A DNA stretch of 64,000 bases, from contig JANFNE010000001.1 of assembly GCA_024867545.1 (NCBI GenBank), positions 186,001-250,000 of the forward strand. Direction: 5' to 3'. Positions 4,490-57,786 of the stretch are shown one piece after another. The first letter of the stretch is position 1, and each line of letters opens with the position of its first letter. Source of the stretch: Phytopythium helicoides (taxonomy: Eukaryota > Oomycota > Peronosporomycetes > Pythiales > Pythiaceae). The notes beneath the pieces were generated by a model, which saw only the letters and a program-made list of their open reading frames with translations, was not told where the DNA came from and made no database searches. The position numbers and the translations under genes are program-made.

Positions 4490-4495
4490 TTGAAT

Positions 4496-4540
4496 GGCTT
4501 GCCGCGGCCATACCCGCGAGCCGAAGGCGAGTACTAGCAA
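4496..4540 (+). repeat. Solo copy of the Fanzor-locus 45-nt hairpin motif
   Basis: This segment matches 31899-31943 at 42 of 45 positions; all three differences are transitions. It begins GGCTTGCCGCGGCC and ends GCGAGTACTAGCAA. Inside it GCGG/CCGC can pair around CCATAC, and GCC-GAA-GGC forms a second small hairpin. No Fanzor coding sequence is near, and similarity stops at both edges: upstream is the transporter stop codon, downstream the sequences diverge. I read it as a solo right end or an omega-RNA-only remnant of a Fanzor element. Confidence 0.7.
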
Positions 4541-12910: not shown

Positions 12911-15900
12911 TTACTTGTCGTTTTCGTCCGCGTCTGTCGGGCTGTATCCGCTTGCCGACGGGTTATAGCCCTCCGTCGGGTTGTACTCAGGCGATGCCGG
13001 GCTGTAGCCGGGAGATGTCGGACTGTATGCCGGCGAAGTCGGGCTGTATGCCGGGCTTGTTGGGCTGTACGCCGGAGAAGTTGGCGAGTACGCCGGAGAA
13101 GTTGGCGAGTAAGCCGGCGACGTCGGCGAGTACGCCGGAGATGTCGGACTGTAAGCGGGAGAAGTCGGCGAGTACGCCGGCGACGTTGGCGAATACGCCG
13201 GAGAAGTCGGCGAGTAAGCCGGCGACGTCGGGCTGTACGCAGGTGACGTCGGCGAGTACGCCGGAGACGTCGGGCTGTACGCGGGGCTTGTCGGGCTGTA
13301 CGCCGGGGAAGTCGGCGAATATGCTGGCGATGTCGGCGAGTACGCAGGCGACGTCGGGCTGTAAGCTGGTGACGTCGGCGAGTATGCAGGCGAAGTTGGG
13401 CTGTACGCTGGCGAAGTCGGCGAGTATGCTGGTGATGTCGGGCTGTACGCTGGCGAAGTCGGCGAGTATGCTGGTGATGTCGGGCTGTAAGCCGGCGACG
13501 TCGGGCTGTACGCCGGCGACGTCGGCGAGTACGCCGGTGAAGTCGGGCTGTACGCAGGTGACGTCGGGCTGTAAGCGGGAGACGTCGGCGAGTACGCAGG
13601 ACTGGTTGGCGAGTATGCCGGCGACGTCGGGCTGTAAGCTGGAGACATCGGGCTGTACGCAGGCGAAGCCGGGCTCAGTGGAGACGCCGGGCTGTGCGCA
13701 GGTGACGCTGCCATGAAACCCGGCGACGCAGGGCTTGCCATCGGCGAAAAAGCTCCAGCCGCAGGCGAAAACGAACCACCACCGGGGCTGAACGGTGAAG
13801 ACGCCGAAAAGCCAGGAGTCGATACAAACGGCGTCGACATTGGCGTACCCGGTCCGTGGTCTGGGCTGCGCCACTCGTTGTCGAGACCTTGCATCACCTG
13901 CTGGATCTCCGACGCCTCGTACTCGATGGCATGCGCGAGCTTCTTGGCGTCCAGCACCATGTCCATCAGACCCGTACCCAGCGGAGCTAGCTGGCCGAGC
14001 ATGACGTTCTCCGAAACACCCGTAAGTGGGTCACCCTCCGAGAACATGGCAGCATCCATAAGGATCTCGACAGTCTCCTCGAACGAGCATCGCACGAGCG
14101 GGCCAGAGTCATCGCGGTTGATACCATGACGTGTGATAGCCATCAAGTGGCCACGGAACGTCATAACATCACACAGACACGCAAGGTGACGGTAGTTGAC
14201 GTATGCACCGTCGAACGAAATGACCTGGCGGATTTCGTTCAGCAGTGCACGACGCACAGCCTCGATACCGAGAACCTGGATAATCTCGACAATATCGTTC
14301 GAGATGGTTCGTGTAGCATCCACCTGCGGGTAGCAGAGCACGTCCAGCAGATTTGTGCCATCCGTGTCGAGCATCCACTCGTTCATCATCTTGAATCCAA
14401 CGTCGTCGAACCAATGCGTCGATGGGCCCTCACGAATGTACACCTTCTTGATGCCCTGGATACCGCGGAGCTTCATCTGCGTAAGCATGTTCTGCTCCAC
14501 TCGCTTAAGGAACGTGTCATCTTCTTGGCCGACAGCAGTGTCGCCCTGGCGCTGGAGCTTCTCCTCCTCGTCGCTCATGATGCGAATCCGCAGCACAAGG
14601 CGGTCAGCGTTGTCATCCGTGAAGATGCACGACAGGTCCTGCCCATACTCCGTCTCGATCTGTGCAGCAATCTCACTCATCGTGAGCTTCTTGTCTGCCA
14701 TCATCTCGCGGTTCAACTCGATACGCAGTAGCCACGGCGACCGAGCCATTGGCGTGTCCTCATCCGGCATTTCGTAGTATGTTGCCACAAACTCCTGGTC
14801 TTCTTCCACCACCGTGTTCATCGGATCGGGGTCGTAGTAAATGGAGGTATTCGCCGTGACGTCTGCCAGCGTCGTGTACTCGAGCTGCGACTGAATGAAC
14901 TTGGCCTTATCGGCATCGTGCGCGCAGTCTGGGGTCAAGAAGATACGGAGCGACGGCGTTCTCACGTCCTTCGCAATGTTCATGATCTCCTTCAGACGCG
15001 GCACACCAAGCGTAACGTTCTTAGCCGACACACCGGCGTAGTGGAACGTGTTCAGCGTCATCTGCGTCGCCGGTTCACCAATAGACTGCGCTCCCACGAC
15101 ACCCGCCATCTCACCAGCAGACACGAGTGCGCTCGTGAACTTCGACTCGATCTCACCGAGAAGCCACTCGAAGGCTGTCTCCGTCAAACGGTGCTCCAGC
15201 GTAACGCACTTGGATGCAAGCGTTGATCGGAGCAGAATCTGGAAGAACAGCGTCGCGTTCTCCTGGGCCTCAATACTCAATCGGTCGTCGCCCTGCACAA
15301 CGATGATTTTCTTACAAAGCTCCTTTACACCCTCAATAATCCGCGACGGGTGAAGGCTCGAAGGCTTCTCCATGTCGATACTGAAGAGCTGCTGAGCGTT
15401 CTGCAGCAATCGCCGAATGTTGACAGGAATTTGGGCGGCATTGTCCGACTCCTGGCCCTGTCCACGACTTGCCAAAATCACACGAAGGTTCACACGGTCC
15501 TTCTGAAGCTGCGCAATCTCTTCGCGCAGCAGTTGCTGAGTCTGCTGGTTTGATCGGATGTCCTTGATAATATCGGGCTCAAGGTACAACTGGTCGGGAG
15601 CGTTGGGGACACATCCAAGGAGTTCGCTTCCCGTGTCAAACATGTACTTGTTCTCGAACTCACGCTTGTTGAGCTTGTGCGACTCGAAACGCTGCTTCTC
15701 CACCCACACAGCGTCCATACCATCCTCGCCGTACAGGAACTGAATAATTTCGCCCTGCGCGTTACGCACAGTACCATCATAACGCGTCATGACCGACTCC
15801 ATTGCCTTCACAAGTCGTCGCTGAATGTAGCCCGTCTCGGCCGTCTTGACGGCAGTATCGATAAGACCTTCACGACCACCCATAGCGTGGAAGAAGAACT

Positions 15901-18484
15901 CCTGAGGAGTCAGACCCTTCAGGTACGAGTTCTCGACGAAACCACGACTTTCGGGACCAAGATCATCCTTGCCGTAATGCGGCAACGTACGGTGGTTGAA
16001 TCCGTACGGGATTCGCTTTCCTTCGACGTTCTGCTGACCCACACACGCAATAATCTGCGAGATGTTAATGAAAGAACCCTTGGAACCAGACGTCACCGTC
16101 GCCTTAATGTTGTTCGTCTCATCAAGACTGCCCTGCGCTTCGCGACCAGCCTGGTCACGAGCTGTGTTCAGCACAATATTGACAAAGTGCTCGAACGACT
16201 CGACCATCGTACGACCGGGTTGCGTCTCAAGCTTGCCCTTCTGACCACGAACGACGAGATCGTGCACCTGAACCTTCGCCTGGGTAATGATGTCGACAAT
16301 CGTCTTCAGCGTGCTCACGTCGGCAATCGTGTCACTGACGCCAACCGTGAAACTACGCACGACGAGCCAGTTGTTCACGAGCTTTTGAATAGCACCAAGG
16401 AAATACTTGGTCTCCTCGGCACCCTTCTCGAGCATCACTGTATGGATCAAACCTCCAGCAGACGAACCAATCGTCTTCTTGTCAATAATACCGGCAAGCA
16501 GCTCACCACGCTGAACGATCACGCGAGAGTCGGACGGCGACAAGTCCGAAAACTTCTCCTTGCTGTTGTGTGTCGACGAAAAGCCCGTGAAATTGATCTC
16601 CGGGATGATCGTCGAGAACAGCTGCTTGCCCGTCCAGATCGGGCGGTATTTACCGAGCTTTCCTTTCTGTGGCACAAGAATCGCAGGAGTAGGCACCTTG
16701 CCGTCCCAAGTATTCACCCACATAAGAAGGTTCATCGTGAGATCCTTCTCGACGAAGATGTCTCGCTTGGTAAACTTCTGAACACCAAGGAGGGAGTCCT
16801 GCACAATACCCATCACGGGACGGTTGCTCTGCGGGGTGATAATCACCTTGTGCACCATCATCAATTCCTGTGCCTCAGCACGAGCAGTCAGTGACTGCGG
16901 CACGTGCAAGTTCATCTCGTCACCATCGAAATCGGCGTTGTACGGGGCCGTGACAGACAAGTTCAAACGGAACGTTGACCAGTCGAACACCTTGACTCGA
17001 TGTGCCATGATGGACATTTTGTGGAGCGACGGCTGACGGTTGAACAGCACCAAATCATCATCGCGGAGGTGGCGCTCGACAATCCAACCACACTTTAGCG
17101 CCAAGTCGGACTTGTTCTTGATATACCGAAGGTCGATACGATTGCCATCTTCGCGAATAATGTACTTTGCGCCAGGGTGCTCCAACGGACCGTTCGAGAT
17201 GAGTTGGTGCATGTACGCCATGTTGAACGGCGTCACACGCTCCGGGACCGTCAGATTCATTGCGATGGACCGAGGCACACCGACTTGGTCAATCTCAAGG
17301 TTCGGGTCGGCCGTGATGACCGTACGCGCTGAGAAATCGACACGCTTTCCCATCAAGTTACCGCGAATACGACCTTCCTTGCCTCGAAGACGCTGGCGTA
17401 GAGTCTTTAGCGGCTTGCCTGACCGTTGTTGGGCCTGAGGCAAGCCAGGCTGCTCGTTATTCAGGAACGTCGAAAGGTGGAACTGCAAGAGCTGCTCGAA
17501 CTGTTCGATAATGTGCGATGGTTCACCCTTGCGGACGCAGTTCAGCAGAGCCAAATTTGCCTTCACGATGGACGCAAGGTTGTGCGTGAGGTCGTCTTCA
17601 CCACGAGCCATGCCGTCGAGGGCAACCGACGGGCGCACGTGCGGCGGCGGGACCGGCATCAGCGTCATGATGAGCCAGTCCGGGCGAGCCCAGCGAGGGT
17701 TGAGGCCGAGCGCGAAGCAGTCCTCGTCCGAAATGTTCTTGAAAATGGACAGCACCTTTGCTGCGGGCAGGTTCTGCTTGCGGTCGCCAGAACCAGGCAC
17801 GTCCTCCATCTGCTCAGGGAACTCGACCATGAGCTTGATGCCCTGCTTGCGGTACTTGGGCTGCAGTCCACCACAGCCGCCGTGGCCACCCTCGCGGGGC
17901 TTGTTCTTGTTGTCGAGGCCTCCCTGCAGACCGATGTTGAGGTCCTCGCGCATCTTCTCCATGTCGGCTTCCTCGCCGTACTCGCACATGCTCTTGTTGC
18001 TGCAGATCTCGTAGACGGCCTTGAGGCGGCGCTTGCCGTTCTTGATCTTCATGGCCGACCGGAAGCGGTGGTCCCGCTCGTCGCTGAGCACCTTGGAGCA
18101 GTGGAAGCAGACGGAGCGCAGGATCTTGAGCACCTCCTTGATGAAGCCCATGTGGTACATGGGTCTGGCGAGCTCGATGTGTCCGAAGTGTCCGGGACAG
18201 TCGTTGACCTTTCCGCCGCTGCCGCTGTAGGTGCAGTCGCAGGTCTTGCATCGCGCGCGGAAGTCGCACGTGCCCATGCGGGGGTCTCCGATGCCTCCGA
18301 TGACGGGGTGTCCGTTGAGGTACGTTTCCGGCCGCGTGATGCCGTCGGGGACGATGCGGTCGTTGACCTTTGTCTGCTTGGTGACCGACATGGCGCGCAC
18401 TTCCTCGGGGCTGAACACGCCGAACTGCAGGTACTTGACGCGCCGCAGCCGCGCGCTCGAGTACGAGAACTGCGTGGACGACAT
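12911..18484 (-). CDS. RPB1: DNA-directed RNA polymerase II largest subunit
   Basis: Catalytic subunit of Pol II: 1,857 residues in a single exon. The N-terminal zinc-binding clamp is present (CDFRARCKTCDCTYSG.. CPGHFGHIELARP). The active-site metal loop reads YNADFDGDEMNLHVPQS, with its three Asp residues intact. The funnel and trigger-loop region (GEPATQMTLNTFHYAGVSAKNVTLGVPRLKE) and the C-terminal conserved blocks (AAMFSEGDPLTGVSENVMLGQLAPLGTG) follow. After a Ser/Pro/Gly linker the tail holds 32 contiguous heptads and ends in an acidic tip (DADENDK). The Met start at 18484 matches the usual RPB1 N-terminus. Long open frames on the opposite strand across this gene are shadows. Confidence 0.97.
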   Translation of the reverse strand: MSSTQFSYSSARLRRVKYLQFGVFSPEEVRAMSVTKQTKVNDRIVPDGITRPETYLNGHPVIGGIGDPRMGTCDFRARCKTCDCTYSGSGGKVNDCPGHFGHIELARPMYHMGFIKEVLKILRSVCFHCSKVLSDERDHRFRSAMKIKNGKRRLKAVYEICSNKSMCEYGEEADMEKMREDLNIGLQGGLDNKNKPREGGHGGCGGLQPKYRKQGIKLMVEFPEQMEDVPGSGDRKQNLPAAKVLSIFKNISDEDCFALGLNPRWARPDWLIMTLMPVPPPHVRPSVALDGMARGEDDLTHNLASIVKANLALLNCVRKGEPSHIIEQFEQLLQFHLSTFLNNEQPGLPQAQQRSGKPLKTLRQRLRGKEGRIRGNLMGKRVDFSARTVITADPNLEIDQVGVPRSIAMNLTVPERVTPFNMAYMHQLISNGPLEHPGAKYIIREDGNRIDLRYIKNKSDLALKCGWIVERHLRDDDLVLFNRQPSLHKMSIMAHRVKVFDWSTFRLNLSVTAPYNADFDGDEMNLHVPQSLTARAEAQELMMVHKVIITPQSNRPVMGIVQDSLLGVQKFTKRDIFVEKDLTMNLLMWVNTWDGKVPTPAILVPQKGKLGKYRPIWTGKQLFSTIIPEINFTGFSSTHNSKEKFSDLSPSDSRVIVQRGELLAGIIDKKTIGSSAGGLIHTVMLEKGAEETKYFLGAIQKLVNNWLVVRSFTVGVSDTIADVSTLKTIVDIITQAKVQVHDLVVRGQKGKLETQPGRTMVESFEHFVNIVLNTARDQAGREAQGSLDETNNIKATVTSGSKGSFINISQIIACVGQQNVEGKRIPYGFNHRTLPHYGKDDLGPESRGFVENSYLKGLTPQEFFFHAMGGREGLIDTAVKTAETGYIQRRLVKAMESVMTRYDGTVRNAQGEIIQFLYGEDGMDAVWVEKQRFESHKLNKREFENKYMFDTGSELLGCVPNAPDQLYLEPDIIKDIRSNQQTQQLLREEIAQLQKDRVNLRVILASRGQGQESDNAAQIPVNIRRLLQNAQQLFSIDMEKPSSLHPSRIIEGVKELCKKIIVVQGDDRLSIEAQENATLFFQILLRSTLASKCVTLEHRLTETAFEWLLGEIESKFTSALVSAGEMAGVVGAQSIGEPATQMTLNTFHYAGVSAKNVTLGVPRLKEIMNIAKDVRTPSLRIFLTPDCAHDADKAKFIQSQLEYTTLADVTANTSIYYDPDPMNTVVEEDQEFVATYYEMPDEDTPMARSPWLLRIELNREMMADKKLTMSEIAAQIETEYGQDLSCIFTDDNADRLVLRIRIMSDEEEKLQRQGDTAVGQEDDTFLKRVEQNMLTQMKLRGIQGIKKVYIREGPSTHWFDDVGFKMMNEWMLDTDGTNLLDVLCYPQVDATRTISNDIVEIIQVLGIEAVRRALLNEIRQVISFDGAYVNYRHLACLCDVMTFRGHLMAITRHGINRDDSGPLVRCSFEETVEILMDAAMFSEGDPLTGVSENVMLGQLAPLGTGLMDMVLDAKKLAHAIEYEASEIQQVMQGLDNEWRSPDHGPGTPMSTPFVSTPGFSASSPFSPGGGSFSPAAGAFSPMASPASPGFMAASPAHSPASPLSPASPAYSPMSPAYSPTSPAYSPTSPAYSPTSPAYSPTSPAYSPTSPAYSPTSPAYSPTSPAYSPTSPAYSPTSPAYSPTSPAYSPTSPAYSPTSPAYSPTSPAYSPTSPAYSPTSPAYSPTSPAYSPTSPAYSPTSPAYSPTSPAYSPTSPAYSPTSPAYSPTSPAYSPTSPAYSPTSPAYSPTSPAYSPTSPAYSPTSPAYSPTSPAYSPTSPAYSPTSPGYSPASPEYNPTEGYNPSASGYSPTDADENDK
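12986..13657 (-). repeat. RPB1 C-terminal heptad array: 32 tandem 21-nt units
   Basis: The span is 672 nt, exactly 32 x 21. The heptads are one YSPMSPA, 29 YSPTSPA, one YSPTSPG and one YSPASPE. Position 7 is Ala rather than Ser almost throughout. Codon choice varies between units, so the protein repeat is better conserved than the DNA, showing purifying selection rather than recent expansion. Degenerate SPASP units precede the array. Confidence 0.95.
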
Positions 18485-27569: not shown

Positions 27570-29305
27570 ATGGCTCGCAAAGACGTGCTGTCGACGCCAC
27601 CATCGGTTGTTGCTCCGAGTCGAGCTCGACCATTGAAACCGATCGTTCCACCATCAAATCGTGCCAGCGGACTTCGCGTCGGCAGGATCGTGTCCGTATG
27701 AGATCTTGAATTTGCCACCAGTAGTTCATTTACCCTCGAAGCCGACTGATTCGATTGAATTCCAGGACGCTCGAGGACTGGGGGAAGTTGGGATCGCGAG
27801 CCATCCAAGTAGCGGAAATCAGCTGAGCGCAGCTTTGCAGGATGGGGAGCGCCGAATGCACGAAGAGCTCCTGGAGATGCTGACGACCAAGCTCGCTAAA
27901 AAGGAGAAGGAGAACGAACTTCTGCGACGCAAACAGGTAACAACACAGCATATAGCATTCATATCTACCTGATGACTTGAGACTGAGTTGATGCGCCAGG
28001 AAGCATTTGACAGGCAGCAGTCTGACTTGGAGGTGCTCCTCGACAAACAAAAACAAGAGGCGGAAAGCATTCGCGTAGAGCTTTCAAACACCAATACCGA
28101 TCTGCAGCGACAGCTTCAGCTCATGCAGATTCAGTGCGAGCGGGTACGCTGCTATCCCAAGACCGTCCATCTCGTGTGACTGACTGAATCACTTCAACCA
28201 GCTCCAGTCCGAGAGTGAAGCGCAGCGCGCCACGAGTCAAGAGCAACGACGTCTACTTGAAAAAACTCGCGCACAACTTCAGGCAAAGATAAGGGAACAG
28301 CAAGCATCAACAGATCAGTTCACTCGAGAGCTCGAACGATGTCAGCTCGAGCGAAGCCAATTCGAGCAGCAGTTGGCAGTGACTCAAAGCCACTTGCAGA
28401 CTCAGCTTGCGAAGGCAAGACTCTCGATTGATACATTGTTTGTCTGTTGAGCATCCGCGCTGACAAAGAAGCGAAAAATCTAGGTGGCAGACATGGAGTC
28501 GCTGCTTCAGCAACTTCAAATCGAAAAACAACACCTTTGTGATGCGCACGAGGAGGCCCAACGAGATCTCGAGCAGGTACGTTTGCTCGACAAATTCCAT
28601 ATTCTTTGAAAACAGACACACAACAGGATCACGATGCTGATTTGGCTTGCGTGAGGGCATTTTAGCGTCTAACCCAAGGAGAACAGCGACTCAAATTGCT
28701 AGACGAGAAAAACAAAAAGCTGGAGCAAGATAAACTGGCATCCGAGGAGAAGAGTCGATTATTAACCAAGGTGATGTCTGATTTGGGAGGAGAATTCCTC
28801 AATCTGCAGTTTCTGACTTTGATCATGAGAGCAGAGCTTGAAAGCAATCAACGCCAAGGCAGCGGACACAGAGAAAAAGAGGACAAGTCTTTCGAGGACA
28901 GAGGAGCAACTCAACACTCAATTCGCTAAGCTACAGAAAGAAAACCAAGAGGTGAAGGCGAGAAGTGCACAACAGACAACGCAGTACAAAGCTCTGCAGG
29001 CTCGAATAGCAACGCTAGAAGCCGCAAACCTGTCGGTCGAACAAAAGCTCAAGGACGCTGAGACCGAGGTCGAGCTTGCCCACAAGAGCTGCCGATCATA
29101 CCAGTTCCGCATTCAGCAACTCCAGGAAGAGGTTGTGTTTCTTGAGAAACGCAAAACAGCACAAGGATCGTTGAAGGAGGCTACATGCGCTACAGTACCA
29201 GAATCGTCACCGGAGAAATCTGCAACGAGTGCACAATCTCTGCAACAGCAAAAGCAGCAGCAGAAGGAGGAAGAATATTCAGATATTCCAGCGTGGATGA
29301 AATAG
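27570..29305 (+). CDS. Long coiled-coil protein, function unknown
   Basis: Seven exons (27570-27660, 27722-27936, 28000-28143, 28202-28414, 28484-28576, 28666-28770, 28835-29305) give 443 residues in one consistent frame. After a Pro/Ser-rich N-terminus of about 60 residues nearly everything is heptad-type coiled coil (e.g. KLAKKEKENELLRRKQ, ESLLQQLQIEKQHL, KKLEQDKLASEEKSRLL, LQKENQEVKARSAQQ). The C-terminus has a Gln-rich stretch and ends EEYSDIPAWMK. Such proteins are often centrosomal, basal-body or golgin-like, but I cannot assign a family. Intron 4 begins GCAAGA after AAG and ends CTAG, so it is a GC-AG intron. The Fanzor locus lies downstream on the same strand. Confidence 0.7.
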
Positions 29306-29790
29306 CCGGGGTACCCGGCATTGGCGCTGTGGTAGATGGCCACAAAAACCTCCACTTCTACATTCACCTTTCTCATCACAACGATCGACTTAAACTCCCA
29401 CTCAACCGGAAAACGTGGAAAAGGAGACGTGAAACTAAATAAACCTGTCGTTACGGCAAGAAACTTACGGTACTGCCCAATTGACAAGCTGGCAGCGCAG
29501 TTCATCAGCTTCAAGCGGGTTGCGCGATGCCCTCCCCAGCGATGACAACAGCACTGCATGGACACTACATATTGCTTGTTGAAGATGCCATAGGAAGGAT
29601 CTCCAGAGCTCCATCATGAGCCTCGGCAAGCTAGTAAAGCGGCCTTTGCCGCTCTGCCTGCATACACGTAAACGGTCATGATGAGACAATAGCATGTTTT
29701 GAATTGTCAAGCGCCCACTCGCTCTCGAACGGCAACGAACGAAAGCGGCTGCCGACCTTGATCTCCCTACTCACAGTGTAATTTGCCACC

Positions 29791-31770
29791 ATGGCAAACA
29801 AGCGCGCTCGATCAGGCAAGGAGGGTGATCCAGGTCCCCGGCGAGGCAGGTCCAAGATCAGACAAGCTGCCGCAGGGCTATGCAGATCCACAACGAGTAG
29901 AGCCGCTTCAGCAACTCGTCGAGGTCGGTCCAAGACAACACGTGCAGCTGGTCCGACGTCAGGCGGTGCTAGGTCTAAAAGGAAGAAACGCAGTGCAGAA
30001 CCACGCAAGAGCCAGTCAAAGAGGCGACGGGCCGAAGTCGAAGCTCGTGACGCAGCTAACGCCAAATCCTCGCTTGTGTGCGTCAAGACGTCGCTCAAGG
30101 CGTTTTGCAAGAGCGATGAGGCCATGACTTTGCCGTGGGAGTCCGTGCTGGCGGATATGGACCAGGCCGTGCTGGAGGCTTACGTCCTCGCCAACATCCA
30201 CGCCGTGCGGATGTGTCAGCTGGGCGATGCAGTGGAGCCACTCAACCAGGTCTTCTTCTACAGATGCCTATCGTGTGTTTGCAACGCCAACTCCACACTC
30301 GGGTCTCCTGCATTCCAGCAATCAGTCACGCTGTACAACACTTGGCGAGGTGAGGACGCTCGACGTGCAAGCAACCGGCAGATTACCGCTGGGTGGCAGC
30401 AGAACGCAGCCCAAATGATGGCCACTAACACCAAGAACGCGATCGTAGGCAACTTCTACCGTCGCTTTCACCGTCACATCAAGCGGGTCTATGACATGAA
30501 CGGTGCTGAGGCCTACGTCATGATCAAGAGCATCCTGGACCCTGTCTTCAACGGATACGATACCGAGGTGCAGGCTTGGCGAGAGCAGATCCCGCGCAAC
30601 GAGAGCGGCTACTTGTCCGACGAGGCTAACAGATTGCTTCCTCTCACCTACATGATTCTGACCGACATTGAAGAGAGGAATCGCCGGTTTCAGCATCGAC
30701 AGGACATCCCAGAGGTCCGCACGTTCAGTCTCCTGCCGACAAAGAATGGGTTCAAGTGCTCGCACTTCAAGATGTGCAAGACGACGCTCCACAGCCTACT
30801 TCTACGTGCTGGTGTTCGCGTGCCTCCTCTAGGTGACGATTGGAATGCTGTCGCAGACGAATGGTGGCACAGTCTCTTCAATATCGAGAAGTTTGAAACA
30901 GCCAACAAGAAGTTCGCAGGAGAGATCGTGACGGACGGAAAGGCTGTCAGTATTGTCATGCGGAAAACTCATCCGGCGACAGACCGCCCACTTAGGGAAG
31001 TAGATTATGATGTCATGTGGGGCCTAGATCCTGGCAGACGAGATCTGTTTGTAGCAACCAACCAGGACGGCGAGACTATCCACTGCTCTTCTCGTGAGTT
31101 CTACGAGGATGCTCGCTACCACAAGAGCAACCAGAAGATAGCTTGCTGGAAGGAGCGGCGTCCCGACATTTTGATGGCCGAGCGTCAGATGCCGTCGAAG
31201 AAGACCGCGTCGCTCGAGTTGCTGGAAACGTACACACGATACGTTATTCCACGGATGGAAAACCTGCTAGGATTTTCACGGGCGAAGGGATTCCGCAACC
31301 TGCGTTTTGGACGGTACATCTTTGCGCAGAAGAAGCTACATGAACTCTGCCGGAGACTGACCCAGCAAGCAGGCAGGCGAACGGTGGTTGGATTTGGAGA
31401 TTGGAGCAATACCGATTACTCTGGAGTCATCAAGAAGTGCCCCGCGGGGCCGGTCAAGAGACTTGAGCACACATTGAGAAACTACTGTCGTGCTCAATCA
31501 ATTGATGAGTTTCGCACCAGCAAGCTTCACTCACGTTGCCACCGGCAACTAGAATACCAGTACAGTCTCCGCCTCTGCAAGGTCAAGAACAGCACGGACA
31601 AGGAATGGCGGACGTGCAAGGTTTATAGTGTGCTCCATTGTCGATCCAATGGCTGTTTTGGTACTACTGTGAACCGCGACGTCAACGCCTCGAAGAACAT
31701 GCTCATGCTCCTCCTCAACATGCTCCGTGGTCAACCAAGACCTACCGTTTTCTGTCGAGCGCCAACTTAA
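29791..31770 (+). CDS. Fanzor: TnpB-like RNA-guided DNA endonuclease
   Basis: 659 residues in one exon, start in a strong context (GCCACCATGG). Residues 1-95 are Arg/Lys/Ser-rich with nuclear-localisation character (e.g. RSKRKKRSAEPRKSQSKRRR). The middle is helical (REC/WED-like, not recognisable by eye). The RuvC nuclease is split as in TnpB/Cas12. RuvC-I is WGLDPGRRDLFVATN with Asp413. The RuvC-II strand TVVGFGDWSN (531-540) lacks the canonical Glu. RuvC-III is TTVNRDVNASKNM with Asp630. A glutamate in SIDEFRTSKLHSRCH (Glu573) sits beside the zinc ribbon, the alternative catalytic position reported for Fanzors. The ribbon has His580/Cys583 and Cys617/Cys622, so one usual Cys is His. The frame is intact, so the protein may be active. 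Fanzors are guided by an RNA made from the element's 3' end. Confidence 0.92.
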   Translation: MANKRARSGKEGDPGPRRGRSKIRQAAAGLCRSTTSRAASATRRGRSKTTRAAGPTSGGARSKRKKRSAEPRKSQSKRRRAEVEARDAANAKSSLVCVKTSLKAFCKSDEAMTLPWESVLADMDQAVLEAYVLANIHAVRMCQLGDAVEPLNQVFFYRCLSCVCNANSTLGSPAFQQSVTLYNTWRGEDARRASNRQITAGWQQNAAQMMATNTKNAIVGNFYRRFHRHIKRVYDMNGAEAYVMIKSILDPVFNGYDTEVQAWREQIPRNESGYLSDEANRLLPLTYMILTDIEERNRRFQHRQDIPEVRTFSLLPTKNGFKCSHFKMCKTTLHSLLLRAGVRVPPLGDDWNAVADEWWHSLFNIEKFETANKKFAGEIVTDGKAVSIVMRKTHPATDRPLREVDYDVMWGLDPGRRDLFVATNQDGETIHCSSREFYEDARYHKSNQKIACWKERRPDILMAERQMPSKKTASLELLETYTRYVIPRMENLLGFSRAKGFRNLRFGRYIFAQKKLHELCRRLTQQAGRRTVVGFGDWSNTDYSGVIKKCPAGPVKRLEHTLRNYCRAQSIDEFRTSKLHSRCHRQLEYQYSLRLCKVKNSTDKEWRTCKVYSVLHCRSNGCFGTTVNRDVNASKNMLMLLLNMLRGQPRPTVFCRAPT

Positions 31771-31943
31771 CACATCAGGGGCCACAAAGTGTCTGCAGGT
31801 GCGCTCAGCGTTGCCCGCAGATAGCACTGTATACTCAGGCATTGTTGCATTTTCACTGGGTTCCATTCCCAGTCATCGTCTTTTATCGTAGGATGCCGGG
31901 CTTACCACGGCCATACCCGCGAGCCGAAGGCGAGTGCTAGCAA
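31771..31943 (+). ncRNA. Candidate omega-RNA (fRNA) scaffold at the Fanzor right end
   Basis: In TnpB and Fanzor elements the guide RNA is transcribed from the 3' end of the gene into the right end, and its guide is the adjacent host sequence. Here 173 nt follow the stop codon and end in the conserved 45-nt double-hairpin motif. Sequence after the motif (from 31944, ATAAAAGG..) differs from that after the solo copy (from 4541, TGGATAGC..), as expected of guides. The 5' end of the RNA may lie inside the coding region. No expression evidence is available here. Confidence 0.45.
31899..31943 (+). repeat. 45-nt hairpin motif at the Fanzor right end
   Basis: 42 of 45 positions match 4496-4540. Starts GGCTTACCACGGCC and ends GCGAGTGCTAGCAA. 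It lies 128 nt after the Fanzor stop codon, in the same orientation as the gene. Confidence 0.75.
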
Positions 31944-32007
31944 ATAAAAGGTGGTGTATAATGCAAAGTGGGCTTTATCGTCTAGGCATCAAGGAAGCAT
32001 GAAGCCA

Positions 32008-46800: not shown

Positions 46801-49800
46801 TTGACGCTAGTTACTTGTTCATCACACGAAAATGTTAGTGGAGGAGACACACAGACAAGGTTGGTATTTGAGCGAAATCTTGCGTCAACAATAATCGAGT
46901 CCTTAACTCGTTTGTGCGTAGATGCACTCTCGGCTACGAATGCCACTCGCACAAGACCAGAGTTGACAAAATTGAGTCCAGAAATATGCATTATGGAGCC
47001 ACCGGAGACAGATATGAAGGCAGGCTCAACTCCGAAAATTATTGCTGGTGGAAGCGTGTAGCATCTGAAGCACATATTTCAACAGTCAAAACCAGACCAT
47101 CTCATTCCGGACTGAACATAGCAGAAGGAACACGCACCGTGTTGGCACTGTTGACCAAAAATCTTGTCCATTCAGAGCAAGATCAATTTGTAATTCAGTC
47201 GGAACCATGGATGACGGTGGACGCTTTTGCTTGAATACCCGCAATAGGCGCTCTTTGCGTGAAGGCGTCGACGGTGTGCAGGAGACCGCAGGTTCACGAA
47301 TGTCCTTTTTTGACGCAATATGAGCAGATATTACCGAGACAATTGATGCTCGAAGAGAGGCAGTTGCGGAACTGCCGTCGCGTCCAGTTCGAGGGTGAGA
47401 AATAGCTATAGCAGTCTGCGCAGGATCAGGAACGACTGCAACTGAAACTTCAATCTCGCCCAACCCAGTGTTTCCGTGTCTGGGCTCGGTCAAACGAGTA
47501 TCTCGCTTTCCACGAAGTTGTTGAAGTGGTAACCAGGCTCGAAACGCCAATGGGATTTGACCCCGCCTAGCATCAAAGTGAAGCTCAATCTGTCCGAGGA
47601 ATTCGCTCTGATCGAGCGTGAGCTGGTTCTCGACAATGACGCGAATTGCAACCGATTGAGAGACAGTCGATGCGGTCGTCGGCCATTCAAAATCGAACAG
47701 TTCGTTCCAAACTGGGGCGAATGTACCATCCTTCCGCGTACTTTTGAGCTGTGACTTACCACATGAGACAACCACGAACGGATTGCAAGTGTGTTTTTTG
47801 CTCACTCGTAGATTTCGTGCACCCAGGATCACAACAAATATCCCGTGTGATCGAACCCAGATCTTGGCTGGGCCTTTGATCGATCGTAAAGAATTGGCAG
47901 GAGGAGAGGAATGTGGCGCTTTTGCTCTTGGGAATACTTGAGTACTCTTGGAGATTGCTGGTGGCGACGAAATTTCTGTTGCAACCGCTCGATTGATATT
48001 GAAGCGGGGTACAAGACAATCAAACCTGGCTTCAGATACCACATAGACATCCGCGATCTGCATCTGCCCGCGTTGTTTGAATCGGACTTTGAAAGTAGGC
48101 TTTAGTTTCCTTGTAGCCTTTTCATCAAACCCCTGGATCGAAAGCTCTATCGATGTCACACCAGGTATAAGGGAGGAGACTGGTGTAGCACCTCGAATAA
48201 TTGGTACCTTATACATAATGAAACTGACTTCATCCCTGCTAAATCGAGTCTCAGCAGCAAATGAACCAGTCCTCGGTGAATCTGGTCCTACAGCACTCAC
48301 GAGAGCTAACTCAATGTTGACTGTAATATTTTGCAGTCCGAATCGACTTTGGGGAGTGTAAAAGTAGATTGTATTGTCGGGTGGGTAAAATTCACCAGGC
48401 AGCACAACACTTTCAAGCTCTCTGCAACCTCGCATCCAGGATAGGCGAACAGATGGCGTAAGCACCGATCCGCACGCGGAAGAGAGTGCTAAACAGGCAT
48501 TGATGTTAATTCCACTAAGAGCTGCGTAGGTATTGCCACTGATTGGTCCGCCTTTTGGTTCAATTGCGTGCACGCTGAACATGACAACCTGTGACTCGGT
48601 AGACGCTTTGGTATACTCTCGCCCGTCGAATGAAATACGGTAGATTATCTTGTAGCTCGACAGAGAGGCAGGCAACACACATGAGATCGTAGTTGGAGAT
48701 ATTACTGTTCCCTGAATGTCCCGAACAAAGAACTCTCCATTCAGACCAACTCGACTTGGCCGCTCGACGCGGTTAATGGCATCAAGTATCTGAAATTCGT
48801 CCTCAGTTCGGTCAAAATGCGACTTCAGGCAACAAAATAGGCGAACGCATACCCGCCCAGTTCCGTCCACATCAATGAAACCTGATCCGCAGATTTGGAT
48901 CTCTCCCCCTGTTGACCGCGGAAGCACACACGGAATTGTTTTTGTTACAATTGGTGAATCGTAGACTTGAAATGAGTTTGGAGATGCGTGTCTCGGCTCT
49001 CCAGTTGGAGGCAGAGCTGGAAACCGATTTCCACCGGGAGAAACCTGAACAGTAAGCATGCCTGGTCTCGGTAAGCCATCGATGGAGCAAAAAATGACGT
49101 CAGGCTGAAGCATAAGCGGAGACAAGTGAAGCGCTAGATCGATTTCACCGTCTGATGCTCCCCAGGTGCCAAGATTTTGTTGCAGTAGCGCACCGCGGTA
49201 AAAATGGCGCTCTAACCCGATAGATAAACGTCGTTGAACTCCCTCTTGCAACTGGTGAAGATAAACAATACCACGTGCAATCTCGAGAGGCCTGGGAAGA
49301 GTTGAGTCCGAGATTTCAAGTGTCAAGACAAGAAGGGAAGTGACTTTGGACACGACTTGGATCTCAAACTGCTCTTCCCAGCTAAGGGCAGAGTTTGTCG
49401 AAAGTGCAGTCATAACTGTTGCCTCCCGGCATGACGCAAAAACGCTTTGATCCCCGCACTCGATGCGAGCTGTCAGCGTGAACGTTGCTGGCAGCGGGAT
49501 TCCGAGACTCGACACTGGACTGGATCCTTTTTCGTCATCTCGCTTTTGTTGTGATGACGAGCTTGGGACTATGTTAGAGATCCCACAACTTCCAAAAGCA
49601 CTCATCAAGCCTCTAATGTTCTTGATCGCGGCAATGCGGACAACCAACAGGTGATTTCGTTCAAGGGCCCCACATATTGTGAAGTATCTGTGCTCGTCAG
49701 CAAATCGGACAGTGATCTTATTGGTTTCCACAAAATCCTTGCCTTTGATTCTCAATCCTATGGCTCTCCGTGTAATTCCGCACGGTGGCTCTACGGCTAG

Positions 49801-52800
49801 GATCTTCCACGTTCGGGGGTCGTAGCATTGAATGCACACAATGTTTGAAAACATGACGCCACCGAAACACACCATTACATTCGTCGGTCCACTAAATGGA
49901 AGAGGGGGCATGATGCATTCCATTGTAACCTCCTGGAGTTTCTCAAGCGTGTTCGTAAAGCTAACGATATCGGATGAACCTCCAAGTACCAAACTCGCTG
50001 ATGCATACACTGACAAATTAAGGCTGGAGTCGGCTGCACTGAAGTAAATGTGGAGGGGGACGCTGTACTCGCTTGTAGGTAGTGCTGATTTTTGCCGAAT
50101 AATTGTTTCGGTTGCGCTTGTAGCCTGCGAACTAGTAGCATCACATTGAGACCCCATACAATCGATTCTTCTTACCTCAACACCGCTACTGTCATCTCCA
50201 ATTACTCGAATAGTAGCTACTGTCCAGACAAAGGGTAGGACATTGAACTCACCAAGCAAACAAACTTCTACTGTTTTGCAACTTGCAACCAAAATGTGAA
50301 CAAAGGTGTGTCTCGACCTGCTCTTCGGTTCGGCGTCGTTTTCTGCCTTAGGTGTATCGGAGTTGTCCTCTTCGTCCTCTACCGAAAATATCGCCTCCTC
50401 ACTTTCCATGGATGTTAACGCATCTCGGCCCACCTCAACAGTCTGAATAATGCCTCTCGGTGCATTTATATTCTTTTTCATTGATGCTTTGAGCTCGAAG
50501 AATGATCCATCCCGACGGCGAAAACGAGGGGTCAAGTTTGTGCAACCAAATGATGTGAATAAAGCTATGCTAACCCGATCTGGCGATGGGTTCTGCATCA
50601 GAATAATCGGAACGCTAGCTGATTCAGTCGACCATTCACGTGTGTTATTTGTATCGCAAGATGCAAGGAAGGAGTACGAGGTGTATCCGGTTTCGGAAGG
50701 TAGCTCTGCTCGAAAACATACATCTCCAACCCAGTCCGTGACTTCAAATACGCATGACCCATTGGAATCTGGTGTTTGTGAGCCGATTTCAGAATTACAC
50801 TCGGGCCGAGAAGCGGTTACAGACACTTTCATGAGCAAGGTCGGGTTTGGAGGGAGTAACAACACATGAAATGTGCAGAAAAGCCGGTTCTTCCAACGTA
50901 TCTCGGAGTCATTTTCAGTCTCCGACATAACACAGGATAATTCAGATGTGGATTCGTTGTCGATATCAGTTGATCCAATTACTGGGCATGCTCTACTCTG
51001 CTGGCGTAACACGTTTTGATAAACGCTTTTTCGTTGCTCATCCTCGTTTGTGATTTCTCCTGGTAGAACATATCGAAGAACAGATGAAATGGTGCTGCGA
51101 AGCGTAAAGCGAGTGCCACCTACGCTTGAGCAAAAGCGAAATCGTTCATCTTCAACAATCGCTACGGGGTTGTGAAGATATATCACACCAAGACAGACAA
51201 ACTGCTGAGCATTTAGTGACAGAAACGCCTTGACTGGGCCTTCAGTTGAAAAATCAGGGATGGGACACGATAATTCGCTCGCACTCACTACTTTCCCAAC
51301 AATATATGGAGTTAGCGGGGCAACTGGTGCTCGTGAAGGTACAGCAGAAGGGAAATCAGATCGAACGTTTGCTGTTTGCCGCACACGTGGACGGCCCGGC
51401 TGAGTTGACACAGTAAACAACGCAGTCGGTGGGGTTGAACTTGACAAAAGAGACCCTGAAGACGCAGAAATGCTAGTGTTCCGCATAATAGTACTTCTTC
51501 GTCTAGAAGTCGCCTGGCTCCGGAGTTTCGGTGCATCCAAACTCACTAGCTCTCTTGTGATTGTAGTTTCGTGTAGCACAATACTGGACCCTCTTCGCTT
51601 TGCTAATAGTGGCTGCGGGTCTCCATCAAACCGAAACGAAATGCGATCGGCTGCATCACTCAGACGCAGTCCTTTTGGGAGATGAACCGTCAGAAACCTG
51701 GCCAACGCTGATGTCCGATTAATCGATTTGGTCGGCAAATGTCGCGGGGACCATTTAATTTCGCTTGGGTCAAGCTCTCCATGGTAGTAAAACTTTACAC
51801 TGTGAGCGATGAACTGTTCACCAGCGTTAAGCGTGAAATCTACGAGAACTGTAGTACCAAGAGAGAGATCAAAGCTCGAAGCCACACAACTGTCGGGGGC
51901 CATTGTAGATTTTGGAAGTATACGGGTTAGACGCAGAACATTAGTCGAGGCTACACTTCCATCCGGATTCTTGGTGGCCACAGCACGAGCTTTCACGCTC
52001 TGCTCTGCCATATTGAGGTACATTTGTGTTCGAACTTTGCCAATAGCAAGATCCCTAGGTCGACGCGTCGATGCTAAGCTCGACGACATGGTCGGAGGCG
52101 GTTGAGGCACACTGACCGATGATCCAGCGGTAGACCCAACTGGGTCAGTGATGGTTTTGTCAGCAAATACCACAGGCGGTGTCTGGCATATAATCAATGG
52201 TGAACTGCTTAATGAACCATCAGGAAATCTACGACTGTAGGTGCCAGGAATCATCGTACACTCTCGATCATTAGTTGAAGACCGGAAACGAACAAATATT
52301 TGGCCCGTGTCAATCACATTTGTTGTTTCGATGACGATAAATGTGCCCCCACTGATAGGACCACAGCAAGGATAGATTTCCGTTATTCCAGGAGACTCGT
52401 AGGAGTAATATTTCTCTCTCTCTTTAACGTTAAACAGCTGCGCAACACCGTTCTTGGTGTCGGATGAGGCCAGTGACGGAGGCAACAGAATATCAACGGT
52501 TGCAGTACACGCAACTCGGAGAAGCGGAGCTCGGCAAGTTACTTTACTGTTAGCGTGGTCAATCTCCCCCGGAACAACTACAGAATCAAGAGTAGAGTAA
52601 GACGGATTCTTAGCATTTGAGCTCAGTCCCATCGGCAATGGGGTTTCTCCCGACACACGAAGAGGAGTAAACTGCACAGAGCACTTGCTTTCCTTTGCAA
52701 GCATTTTTAAGAGCTTATTTGCTAGAAATAGCACAACCGATGACCCACCTGCTGCTGGACCAGTGGAGGTGGCCAAAAAGAATGGTGATCCAAATACTCG

Positions 52801-55800
52801 AAGTGGCAGGAGAGAAGTACATATTCCACCGCTAAAATTTCCAAACGTGGCGCCCATATAGTGCGAATTAGAAAACTGCTGACCGTTAAGGCTCACTTCG
52901 ACTTCATAGAAACCTGGCGAAAGGGGCGGAAACACCCCCTCGATCTGAAGCAGCGATGATCCAGCGTCAGTCGCTTGCCCTACCGGTACTAGTTTGGCCA
53001 CCGTGATTGACTCTGCGTCCAGTTCAGCTTGATCTGGGCTTGCATATTGCTGTCGCACAAATCGCATCATGACTCGGCAACCGTAGTCGCAAAAGTGATC
53101 ACCACCGACTCGAATAGTACTCGGAACTTCAGTTGAGCACCACTGAGGAAATATCTGACGGACGACCGGCGACACATAGTAGATGTATTTCAGGTTGTTC
53201 TGGTGTTGAATGGAAGTATAGTTGATTCCGTTGAGCGAGATATTGAGAAAAGCCACACACGCGGTATCGACAGCAGGTGTAACAAAGCTCACCGCGTCGC
53301 CAACAATTGTCCCCTTTACCAAGATGGAAGTTGCTTCTGGTTTAGCATTCAATGACAGTGATGGCTTGCCCTCCAGTACATTTGTCTCGGAGTTGGCGGC
53401 AGGATTGCAAGGCGTGATGCATACTGTGATTTCCCCGGTGTCCACAATTTTACCACACCATGCAAGAACGTTCGTACCTCCAGTAATAGGTCCAGCACAT
53501 GGCTCTATTCGGATAACACCTTCTGGAGGATCGTAGAAAAGAAACTGGACACGAGAGTCTATGAACTGTTCAAACGCACCATGGGCCAGAGTGACGTGTA
53601 GTCGCACCAGTTCGTTGGCTGGCCATGCAGGGGCTGTGCATGAAATCGACAATGTGGTTGCATCAAATTCGGCAAGAACATCTTGGAAGTAATCGCCACT
53701 TTCTCCCATGAAGCGAACAGCACATTCAATAAGAGTTTTGTTGGTAGGCAAACCATCTTCACTGCCCACAATTAGACAAACTGGGGTTCTTCCCGACACT
53801 GGACCACACAAAATTCCTTTCCCGGTGAATAATGGTGCCCGATGGTATTCAAAGTAGCACGTTGAATCAATGAACTGCTGCAGATTGTAGGAAACATGGA
53901 GTCCGACTCGGCCCGGTCGAAGTGACGGGGGAGCAGCGCACTGAATGGTCTGAGTGTCGACAACTCCAGCTTTGACAATCACGTCGGATGTTCCTTCACC
54001 GAGTCCATCCTTGTATGGAGAGCAGAACCGAACATAAATTCGAGTTCCTGGTACAAATCCAAGGCCCTTTATCAACACAATGGTCCCACCGCTGATTGGG
54101 CCGAAGCCGCACACACGGTCGCTGCTGCGTGGTACCATAAATACTGGTAGAGGAAAAGCTTCAAACATTGCAACTTTAGGGATTCCAGCGGCATACTTAT
54201 CAAGTTTACCAACAGTGTCGTCTTTACTGTTCACGGGTTCAGTCTCCGTATCTGCAACACTTGCGCGACTAACAACGTTTAAGTGCAGCAATTTGTAATG
54301 CTGTTCGTTAAACGAAACAGAAACTTCATGCGCTCCTTTTTCGACTTCTGGTGAGAAACATTCAACAAAACGGTCTTCTCGCACTCGACCACCTGACGGT
54401 TCACTTTTGCCGAAGCGAAAATCGACAGTTGGAGTCTCGATTACTTCCTCGAATTCGAAAGACACAACCGACCCGCTGCATGTGTAGCCAATAGATGGGT
54501 CCATGGCTAGTAATAGTGGCATCCGGTAATATCTAAATCTAAATGGTAGCGCCATCGCCTGCCCATCAATCACGCTGATCCGCATGGTCAAGTACTCTTC
54601 GAGTATCATTCGTCCAGGAATTGCAGTCCCCGACCGGGCGTCTGAGCAGATATGGGTTAGAGGAGGGCACCTCCATACCATTGTCTGACGCTTGACATTG
54701 ACTTCACCAACGATGATAGCTGCTGGGATTTGAGTATGGCTTTCACCTGACCTACTTTCGCTCTGCAAATACAGCGCAATTTTTACCGTGTCTCCGAGCT
54801 GCAGATATGAGCCGTGCGCAACAATCTCGGTCTCGCAATCATATAAACCGTACAGTGGAGTCATTGATGTCAGATGGGGGATGTTGTAAATCTTATAGTA
54901 GGATAACAAATCCCCAATTGTGTGGAAACTTGTTCCATCGAATGAAACGTCAATATAGAGATTTTCTAGAGCAGCAATCGTATCGGTATATTCCGCGACG
55001 GCGGGGAGCGTCAGTTCAAATCTATCACTTCGCCATCTTTTCACGTCAATAGGCTCAAAAGCTGTCTCTTTGTCCAAGGCCTTCACCTTGAACCGAAAGA
55101 TCACCATCACTTTATCGGTTACAAGTGACGGTGAGAGATGAATTGTAAGTGGTATTGGAATCTCCGCCGCACCGATACGAGGCTCAACTCGTTGAATTTG
55201 GTATGACCCAAAGTAATGCAGCATAACACAGCTCCCAGTGAAATCGTTGCTGTTGAGAGCAACATCGACGCTTGCCGTAGAGTTTGCAAATTCGTTCGGA
55301 AACGTTGGTGTGGTGGCAGTAATCACACCATCTCTGGCCTTTCCAGGTACATCTTTGTGGGTCGATTTCCCGTGTGAGTTGATAAAGCTGAATCGCACCT
55401 TGATTCTTCCTGTTTCTATCAAATTGGCGCCGAAAATCTTAATAACACTAGGTTTCGACACACTAGCACATAGAGGGCTGATGGATTCAATTGACGGCGA
55501 GCTGTAGAAGACAAAGTCGAGTAATCGGGACGTTTCAGGATCTCGAAACGCGCACTTTGTATACTGCTCAGAGTTGAATGAAACATAAACGCTGACTGGG
55601 CCAACATTAAATGGCGGTGCACAGCATCGGACCTCTCCTTTTTCCACGAATCCAAGTACCTTCCGGCTCATGTGCGGTGAGTGAAAAACCACAGACACGT
55701 GCGCACCGTGGTCAACAATATCATCACCCATGATGCGGATTGAGCTCCCTCCTTGAATGTCTGCCGACATCGGGAGTACAGCATTGAATGTTGGGGTTTT

Positions 55801-57786
55801 GTAAAACAAAAAGTACAGATACGACCAGTCTCGAACCATTGCCTGCGCAACAGTTTGGTTGAACGACATTTTCTGAGATCGAGGCGAAGTTAGTGGGGGC
55901 GGCTCAACCGAATCAAAGGGATAGAATTCTGTGCCTCCGTCGTATGAAATCTGAATCTTAGTCAACAGGGGTAGCTCTTCAGTTTCATTCCAATTTGGCG
56001 ACACAACGCAAATCAAGCAGTCTGGGTCGTCGTCCACGAGCTCACTTGCCGTGGAGTCTAATTTGAATTGTTGTCTCTCTGATACTTGGTCCTCGACAGT
56101 GCTGTCGGTAAATCGCCTGCCTTTCACGATTTTGAATAGGTTACTCTTGAGAGAGAGAAATCGAACTAGTATTGGAAGACGGCAAGGGACTTTGTACTTC
56201 ATGCGAAGAATGATCGACGTGCCTCCCGCAGACGGGCCATGATGCCTTGTGATTGAGCGAATCGTTGGGGGGAAATAGTAAGCAAAGTCGAGCGCGCCAA
56301 AAAATGCGTCACTGCCCAGCGCAATGGAAACCTTACATCGCTTCACTCGAAGTGGAACGTCTCCATCGTAATCGAACAGTACCTTTTGTCCAAGGCATTG
56401 AAGGGTCTTAAGCTCCTCCATAAACGATGGGGTACGACATAGGATAGCACCTAATCCAATCGACCGAGAATCGCCACCACCTTCGCCTGGAATTGTGAAT
56501 CCCTCTGCACTTACTGTCTTACATAGCCCTTCAATCGGTGACCCGTCCGCGTTGAGTGCTTGAAATCGGATCCGGACTTTTTTAGGCGGAATCAGGTTTT
56601 GCACCTGCGAAAGTGCGTCGACAGCCTCCAAAGGCAAGCACAAATGGTGAATTTTCACCATGGTGTTGCCAGAGAGACTGCCGTTAGCGGGTGCTATCTC
56701 TTCCAGCGGTCTGTTTCGATAAAGCAGAGCCACCACACTGGAATTGCCGAACTGCTTTCCGCCATTTGGCGATACGCGGAACGTGGTGAGCCCGAAAGGC
56801 ATATTCGCTTGGACGTTGCAGTGAATCTCTTTGCTACTCACGAACGTCGCGTTGAGTTGTGCAATTGTGACGATGGATAAAGGTTGATTCGCACCTTGTG
56901 ACGTCTTTGTTGGTAATTCGCGCTGTGCCAAGGAAACCACGAGATCACCCGAGTCGATGAAACCCGTACCGAAGATTCGAACCTCGGTCGCTCGACCACT
57001 TGCGACATCGATGGTAGAAGGATCCATCATTTCAATCAATACATCTCTCTGGACGCGGTAGCCCATTGTCTCGGGCGATTTTTCCGCTCCATGGAAGTAA
57101 TGCACGCGATTGAGAGTTACTTCGACTAGCGCGGGGCCGTATGCGAGCATAACGGCATCGAATTCGACTTCAAAGACGCCTTGCGGAGACACGCTCCACC
57201 TGCCGGGCCGCGTCTGCTCCGACACGATACCTGTCCGCTCTGCCTTTTGCTTGACTCGCACGAATACTGGCAGCGAGCTAATCTCGTCTAGTGGCCGCTC
57301 TGCGGCCTTGGTGGACGTCGCCAAACGGCTCGGAAGTTTGAGAATGTTGAGGGTCAGTGTGACGGTCGTCGGTGGAGCCATAAGTACATGCTGCGGACAT
57401 AATCTGCGCACGGCGAGCGCCTGGTGGATGCGGTACTCGAGCGCGTTGGACGTGACGGTCGAGTCGAGGATAACCTCGACCGAGACGCGCAGTACCTGCG
57501 GCGCGGACGTGACGGACGCCGAGGACATGGCGAGGTTCGTGCGGCTGCTGACGACGGCGTTGAACTCGCTCTCGAAGGACGGAACGACCACCTCGAGCTG
57601 CGACTCGAGCAAAAAGCGGCCGGGCACGTCCACCTTGCAGTCCCTGGCGTCCGTGAGCCGGAATCGCACGAGCAGCGAGTGCGGCGGCGGGCGGAAGCCT
57701 CGGCCGTGCACGAGTAGCACGCATCCACCGCCCACGACGCCCAGCGAGGGCTCCAGCAGCCGTAGGCGCAGCCCCGAGGTCGCCAT
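43893..57786 (-). CDS. Giant multi-IPT/TIG-domain protein with an internal C2 domain
   Basis: Four exons (57786-47138, 47064-46418, 46352-45862, 45788-43893) join in phase to 4,560 residues; exon 1 alone is 10.6 kb. Almost the whole length is a succession of beta-rich IPT/TIG-like modules, each opening with a G-P-x-x-G-G-T-x-V motif and then G-x-x-F/V-x-D-T-G (e.g. CCGPISGGTFIVIETTNV; GPISGGTIVLIKGLGFVPGT; MNGPVYGGFTVVVEGKNFVD). Repeated endings of the form VSFNEQHY or ISLNGINYTS mark module ends. A C2-like domain (FVVILGARNLRVSKKH.. NPFVVVSCGK.. PVWNELFDFEW) lies roughly two-thirds along. The C-terminal part has an EF-hand-like helix pair (ALERDIEALWTACGGSLSGR) and a disordered Pro/Glu-rich tail. 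There is no signal peptide or transmembrane segment, suggesting an intracellular, perhaps axonemal, scaffold. Function unknown. Confidence 0.8.

Follow-up and report, generated by a model that had tools for sequence, protein, structure and literature searches.

A young single-gene Fanzor1 transposon family with fixed ends and a fixed target in an oomycete genome

The closest described counterparts of the element reported here are CRe-1, CRe-2 and CRe-3 of Chlamydomonas, which are Fanzor1-encoding non-autonomous Helitron2 elements (Bao and Jurka 2013, PMC3627910). The same authors observed in these algal elements the split between complete copies without and truncated copies with duplications that is documented below, and assigned them to Helitron2 (PMC3627910). 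In the Helitron2 layout the 5' inverted repeat lies 0–2 bp from the left end and the 3' repeat about 20–30 bp from the right end (PMC3627910). Among Fanzor1 nucleases of solved structure, the target-adjacent motifs (TAMs) are CATA for SpuFz1 and TTAAN for GtFz1 (PMC10432273), and the third catalytic position of GtFz1 is N (PMC11423790). The window analysed here, 64,000 nucleotides of Phytopythium helicoides DNA forming part of contig C1 in a host genome of 49.06 Mb and 100 contigs, holds one copy of a young transposon family whose only gene encodes a Fanzor1. An earlier note on this DNA had recognized an intact Fanzor with no partner transposase, and sequence search, alignment and predicted fold all bear out that identity. 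Its suggestion that the gene may have been tamed by the host is not supported: about 120 copies are dispersed in the genome, their ends and target are fixed, and many siblings of this locus are intact.

What Fanzors do for the elements that carry them is an open question, for which the family offers a good natural test case. A single young family is present in one genome in at least 23 intact copies and many broken ones; its ends are exact, it follows an insertion rule and its nuclease is under measurable selection, though the element has no transposase gene.

The Fanzor1 protein and its conservation among copies

By its sequence and predicted fold, the gene product is a Fanzor1 RNA-guided nuclease. 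The RuvC residues picked out in the earlier note, Asp413 (in GLDPG), Glu573 (in DEFRTSK) and Asp630 (in NRD), are found at those positions, and the conservation of each is 90% or more across 37 aligned proteins (A1), namely the window Fanzor and 36 of its 53 homologues. The DP motif, a GDWS stretch, the DE-x-x-TS glutamate and NRD align with their counterparts in SpuFz1. The triad has the Fanzor1 arrangement, with D413 in DPG, E573 separated by six residues from H580, and D630; six residues between the catalytic glutamate and the first zinc ligand are a Fanzor hallmark (PMC10711439). The zinc ribbon proposed in the note is present, but its ligands are His-Cys-Cys-Cys (H580, C583, C617 and C622) rather than the four cysteines (C4) expected between TS-x-x and RD in Fanzor1. 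Since 30 of the 37 proteins have His as the first ligand and 7, among the more distant, have Cys, the ribbon is to be regarded as a variant of the C4 motif. The N-terminus, a putative nuclear-targeting region in the note's reading, is basic, as had been noted, with 30 Lys or Arg against 6 Asp or Glu in the first 95 residues, and residues 1–75 are predicted with a local distance difference score (pLDDT) below 50. The frame, open throughout its 659 codons, begins in the context GCCACCATGG, in agreement with the strong start context claimed for it.

A sequence search of solved structures returned only SpuFz1 (E 4e-11) and the Parasitella Fanzor1 (E 8e-5), and the match to the Pfam TNB domain PF07282 (E 2.6e-4, 21.5 bits) falls under the 26.3 cut-off. 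Structure prediction, which the earlier note had proposed as a check, gave an AlphaFold2 model with a pLDDT of 84.3 and a predicted template modelling score (pTM) of 0.79. In structural comparison the chains of SpuFz1, PpFz1 and GtFz1 stand far ahead of everything else, so that the predicted fold is that of the solved Fanzor1 proteins.

The 53 homologues were found among 7,993 scored candidates. The nearest named ones come from Globisporangium ultimum (61% identity), Phytophthora (up to 55%) and Nothophytophthora, followed at 44–45% by proteins from Klebsormidium and others labelled Astpho2, presumably the green alga Asterochloris. One homologue, P0014, is 46% identical and is labelled Candidatus Sysuiplasma, an archaeon; it lies on a 3.3-kb contig. 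Two scans of viral contigs and one of GTDB genome contigs confirmed no viral or prokaryotic Fanzor carrier, and because no relative was confirmed in the GTDB contigs, P0014 probably sits on a misassigned contig. A published survey judged prokaryotic and viral Fanzor cases to be ambiguous or wrongly assigned (PMC10711439).

Comparison of coding sequences indicates that the protein is under purifying selection between copies. Diversity among the best 30 of the 67 protein matches, a sample in which intact copies are over-represented (23 of the 30 frames), is 0.020, 0.016 and 0.042 at codon positions 1, 2 and 3; the 5' region has 0.046 and the 3' region 0.022. The ratio of nonsynonymous to synonymous divergence (dN/dS) averages 0.236 over 253 pairs of intact copies, with dS between 0.015 and 0.103. 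Within the 23 intact copies, nonsynonymous and synonymous variants stand in a ratio (N/S) of 1.68 when confined to a single copy and 0.61 when shared, the random expectation being 2.6–3.3; lineages that left descendants therefore kept the protein, single copies then decaying. The notion of an active programmable nuclease, also raised in the note, is consistent with the intact catalytic residues and with this selection. Because the product of the gene could serve all copies in trans, selection on it argues for a benefit to the producing copy, and a guide derived from the flank of that very copy would confer such a benefit.

Ends, target site and copies of the element

The family has spread to about 120 dispersed places. 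Its right end, searched as the last 22 nt with at most 3 mismatches, occurs 122 times in the genome, 61 times on each strand, and 93 matches are exact among the 100 listed; the reversed pattern gave none. The left end was found by pattern at 84 places (control 0), and 73 of these match a longer pattern that reaches into the same Fanzor 5' region. Protein matches, whose genome counts are lower bounds, were scored at 67 places, and 24 span residues 1–659 without a stop. When the 84 left ends were paired with the 100 listed right ends, 60 left ends had a properly oriented partner within 12 kb, in 48 cases at 2.37–2.70 kb, and 24 left and 41 right ends stayed unpaired. The right edge given in the earlier note, 31943, lies 2 nt beyond the last base of the element, and the note missed the left part, which starts at 29303.

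Ends and target were read in 37 copies, 21 of them single loci and 16 paired pieces. Included are two 1.5-kb derivatives (L073 and L074), two copies with later insertions and one whose right end is altered (L015); L009, a copy with a degraded left end, was excluded. The element starts with T in 36 of the 37 and ends with CTAGC in 36 of the 37, and TG followed by two or three A precedes it in 29. The A-runs on the two sides are equal in length in 34 copies, a number reached in none of 20,000 permutations (mean 25.9). The left A-run is followed by T in 36 copies, the right one by T in 32, G in 3 and C in 2. The ends and flanks therefore define the target as TG-A(2–3)-T, with the A-run as the repeated part, and since T follows the left run in 36 copies and the right run in only 32, the left T appears to be part of the element.

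In copies extending to the left end only the A-run is repeated; those that stop early often have duplications of 6–11 bp. Of 20 copies whose match breaks off before the left end, 6 have a duplication score of at least 7, as against 2 of 380 cross-paired flanks; the score is that high in 2 of the 37 copies with both ends, both times by running into the element's own GGCC. At least two of the 20 scored copies, L007 and L013, stop owing to a common foreign stretch, and 10 of 20 right-end pieces extended beyond the fetched stretch and were not entered in the test. Left out of the six is L030, in which the script picked the wrong junction and a 10-bp duplication, AATACATTGC, is seen by eye. Among the 11 shortest 3' fragments (less than about 155 nt, the 44-bp copy in the window included), 6 reach that score and one more has a duplication of 6 bp. 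The fragment duplications, such as AATACAGCCAC, AATACAATAC and AATTCAGATCA, begin where the A-run of complete copies begins, mostly after TG or TT.

Table 1. Coordinates of the element and its parts in the window
Feature	Position	Strand	Remarks
Whole mobile element	29303..31941	+	2,639 bp, opening with T and closing with CTAGC; many dispersed copies lose homology at both points
Left target A-run copy (AAA), TG before	29300..29302	+	A-run of equal length on both sides in 34/37 copies
5' inverted repeat at left terminus	29302..29321	+	29305–29319 able to form hairpin GCCGGG-GTA-CCCGGC
5' untranslated region of element	29303..29790	+	
Fanzor1 gene	29791..31770	+	659 aa, single uninterrupted frame
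3' region, candidate guide-RNA scaffold	31771..31941	+	placed by analogy with Fanzor1 guide RNAs
3' inverted repeat	31893..31914	+	27 bp inward of right terminus, asymmetric
Short GCC-GAA-GGC stem-loop, right end	31923..31931	+	read from sequence; folding no better than shuffles
Right target A-run copy (AAA)	31942..31944	+	
44-bp mini copy	4495..4538	+	element's last 43 nt (3 mismatches) after T; TTG-AA-T site, AA on both sides

No second gene was found within the element, in keeping with the absence of a partner transposase reported earlier. The two longer copies that were examined for a partner gene, L071 and L072, both carry other insertions, neither of them partner-like: a repeat-rich stretch in L071 and, at 487–3189 of L072, a MULE transposon gene (PF10551) within the Fanzor copy, with an 8-bp element stretch on either side. 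The derivatives L073 and L074 keep both ends and have internal deletions; at 217–946 the former holds 730 bp of other sequence in its middle, partly repeated elsewhere. The foreign stretch common to L007 (about 1067–1386) and L013 (1077–1387) is some 300 bp long; its place in the 5' region corresponds to window position 29677.

The host is an oomycete, as had been supposed, since the RNA polymerase II large subunit encoded on the minus strand of the window (12911–18484) is nearest, among the named matches listed, to oomycete proteins (Phytophthora lilii, 95% over 95%; Pythium oligandrum, 92%). A frame upstream of the element, 28838–29305, closes at the left junction (29300–29305) with ATG AAA TAG. 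When the flanks are joined without the element it closes at the same codon with ATG AAA TAA, M-K-stop both ways, and the insertion therefore seems to have spared it. The 44-bp mini copy lies directly after the stop codon of a frame for a BT1-like transporter. The minus strand holds, at 47086–57861, an open frame of 3,591 aa in which Pfam gives only TIG and C2 domains; GC content is lower in that part of the window.

Proposed mobilization, candidate guide RNA and competing explanations

The probable explanation, in our judgement, is that a single-gene Fanzor1 family is mobilized in trans by RepHel, carries a guide at its right end and cuts element-free sites. Because the element has no transposase gene and its ends have Helitron2/Helentron-type anatomy, RepHel from Helitrons elsewhere in the genome would most likely move it, by a rolling-circle route that may begin at the right end. 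The left inverted repeat starts at the terminus and the right one ends 27 bp from the end, as in Helitron2. The inverted-repeat score is 28 in the window copy, a value matched or beaten in 46 of 5,000 shuffles and by 24 of the 4,485 control pairs, and 32 in copy L004, a score as good being found in 4 of 8,315 control pairs. The left-end hairpin of Helitron2/Helentron elements is also present, if modestly: its 6-bp stem (−7.4 kcal/mol, z −1.57) is equalled by 16 of 200 shuffles. Helitron_like_N has 33 hits in the host genome, and 17 lie in open frames of more than 1,000 aa. The hits on C1, C17, C23, C26 and C35 form same-strand, tandem-like series about 9–12 kb apart.

A transcript of the right end together with 15–20 nt of adjoining host DNA would form the guide RNA, its guide running from about 31942 on, and the TGAAT side could act as TAM. 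Fanzor may then cut versions of the site that lack the element, and repair from the element-bearing copy would keep or spread it, a step consistent with the selection on the frame. Placement of the guide RNA in the 3' region is plausible by analogy with other Fanzor1s, whose sequenced right-element RNAs extend about 15 nt beyond the target duplication, the duplication being predicted to be part of the scaffold (PMC10711439). The conserved motif that the earlier note described after the stop codon exists as a conserved end, in 122 genome copies; the hairpin attributed to it is weak, folding at most modestly above shuffles. Over 173 nt the 3' region has only a modest folding advantage over shuffles (z −1.75; 12 of 200 do as well), and it has no Rfam match. 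Variants shared by at least two copies occupy 9 of its 171 sites, compared with 67 of 659 third codon positions (p 0.053) and 52 of 487 sites in the 5' region (p 0.045), a borderline difference. Guide-directed choice of new sites is not supported: when 12 nt from 68 of the 72 distinct right flanks are compared in all 2,278 pairs, 14 pairs have at least 8 matches, as against 9.9 in column shuffles, and 41 of 300 shuffles reach that number.

Several observations weigh against mobilization by RepHel with a right-end guide. No genomic Helitron was shown to have the element's ends: in the one case checked, a pair of listed ends on either side of Helitron hits (C1:626630 and C1:651551), the left end runs, with 3 mismatches, into the Fanzor 5' region. 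A 3' hairpin of Helitron2 type is no better than shuffles, the last 56 nt being matched as folded DNA by 95 of 200 and the last 32 nt by 103 of 200. The A-run is repeated here, whereas complete Helitron2 insertions are reported without duplication, and of the 20 copies ending before the left terminus, 14 show no duplication that scores 7 or higher. When all variants are counted, the 3' region (43 of 171 sites) is no different from third positions (p 0.76) or the 5' region (p 0.15). The evidence from empty sites is likewise imperfect. When the flanks of L008 are joined, they match a repeat through the joint at 38 places (two more of 40 matches being the locus itself), so this copy sits in a repeat, but the exact joint is not clean: most of the 38 places have about 6 nt more, and none of them contains a 20-mer spanning the joint (at most 3 mismatches), which has 6 hits elsewhere (control 4). 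For L024, no place among 40 matches, two of them the locus itself, spans the joint.

A fixed 3' end, 5' truncation and duplications of 6–11 bp, all seen here, are classical marks of target-primed reverse transcription. LINE-type copying of a Fanzor/guide transcript might thus account for at least the 5'-truncated copies: a bottom-strand nick between TG and AA, which would leave a T-rich primer, would prime at the 3' end, an early stop would give 5' truncation, and a second nick about 10 bp away would give the duplication. Such a route has no need of the single hairpin and inverted-repeat terminus shared by the 84 left ends, 73 of which continue into the 5' region; moreover, both-ended copies lack longer duplications and there is no poly-A tail, and we regard it as unlikely. 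The matched A(A)AT flanks of most both-ended copies can also be read as 3–4-bp target duplications of an ordinary cut-and-paste DDE transposon, of unknown superfamily, that has lost its transposase gene, and Fanzor1 occurs in several DDE families (PMC3627910). This is improbable, given that the inverted repeat is terminal on the left and 27 bp inside on the right, that duplication length tracks the A-run and reaches 10–11 bp in several fragments, and that the left T seems to be the element's own. It is also conceivable, though quite a long shot, that the Fanzor ribonucleoprotein itself joins in insertion, the short fragments being written from guide RNA at sites opened beside the TAM and the complete copies arising by a separate rolling-circle route; the fragments amount to hardly more than the candidate guide-RNA 3' end, sit at a TAM-like TG-AAT and often have 10–11-bp duplications beside them.

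Two further explanations concern the protein rather than its mobilization. Its basic, poorly modelled N-terminus would suit a regulator or a host-serving factor that no longer acts as a nuclease for element retention, yet the triad conserved in the alignment of 37 proteins and the purifying selection between copies make such a role very improbable. That it is a single domesticated host gene, as the intact frame alone might suggest, is barely credible beside a family of about 120 dispersed copies that share their ends and their insertion rule.

Relation to described Fanzor1 elements

An open-access literature search on Fanzor and TnpB found no title giving an account of this family. Its nearest likeness is to CRe-1, CRe-2 and CRe-3 (PMC3627910), in which Fanzor1 is likewise the sole gene, the terminal inverted repeats are asymmetric, the left end has a hairpin, and the 3' end is retained where the 5' end is often lost. 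In both, complete copies lack a long duplication and truncated ones carry duplications at the same target word. The recurrence in distant green algae of this double pattern, an A-run repeat in complete copies and 6–11-bp duplications in fragments, calls for a common mechanism. The differences lie in the target (TG-A(2–3)-T here, TTTT there), the length of the duplications (6–11 bp here, about 7–19 there) and the gene, which is one uninterrupted frame here and has five or ten exons there; the algal ends, furthermore, resemble those of verified Helitrons, and no Helitron with like ends was shown here.

Fanzor1 families of Pythium ultimum and Phytophthora also have oomycete hosts, but of the six families listed, PUl-1, PUl-4 and PUl-5/6 of P. 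ultimum (for PUl-5/6 the ends are not defined) are assigned to Mariner and have TA duplications, unlike those found here (PMC3627910). Helentrons and the related HINEs share the subterminal inverted repeats, and HINEs have an uncertain number of T on both flanks where this family has A; a proto-Helentron of Phytophthora infestans terminates in CTAG and has its insertion point between A and T (PMC4067079). The Helentrons and HINEs described in the excerpts of that paper carry RepHel and other genes, or no gene, and Fanzor is not among the proteins named there. Elements of the IS200/IS605 and IS607 type, with TnpB, resemble this family in having an RNA-guided nuclease gene and no long duplication, and their guide is read across the right end; unlike them, the host genome gave no Pfam hit for Y1 (PF01797) or serine (PF00239) transposase domains; as a control, the two domains were found in 5 and 10 of 14 genomes, and a divergent gene may have escaped the search.

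In its predicted fold the protein is like SpuFz1, PpFz1 and GtFz1, but identity in the structural alignment is 17–20% and His replaces the first zinc cysteine. Fanzor1 in Helitron2-type elements is known from algae, and Fanzor1 is known from oomycetes (PMC3627910); the present family is not a new kind of system but a new, young and well-preserved addition to the Fanzor1 elements.
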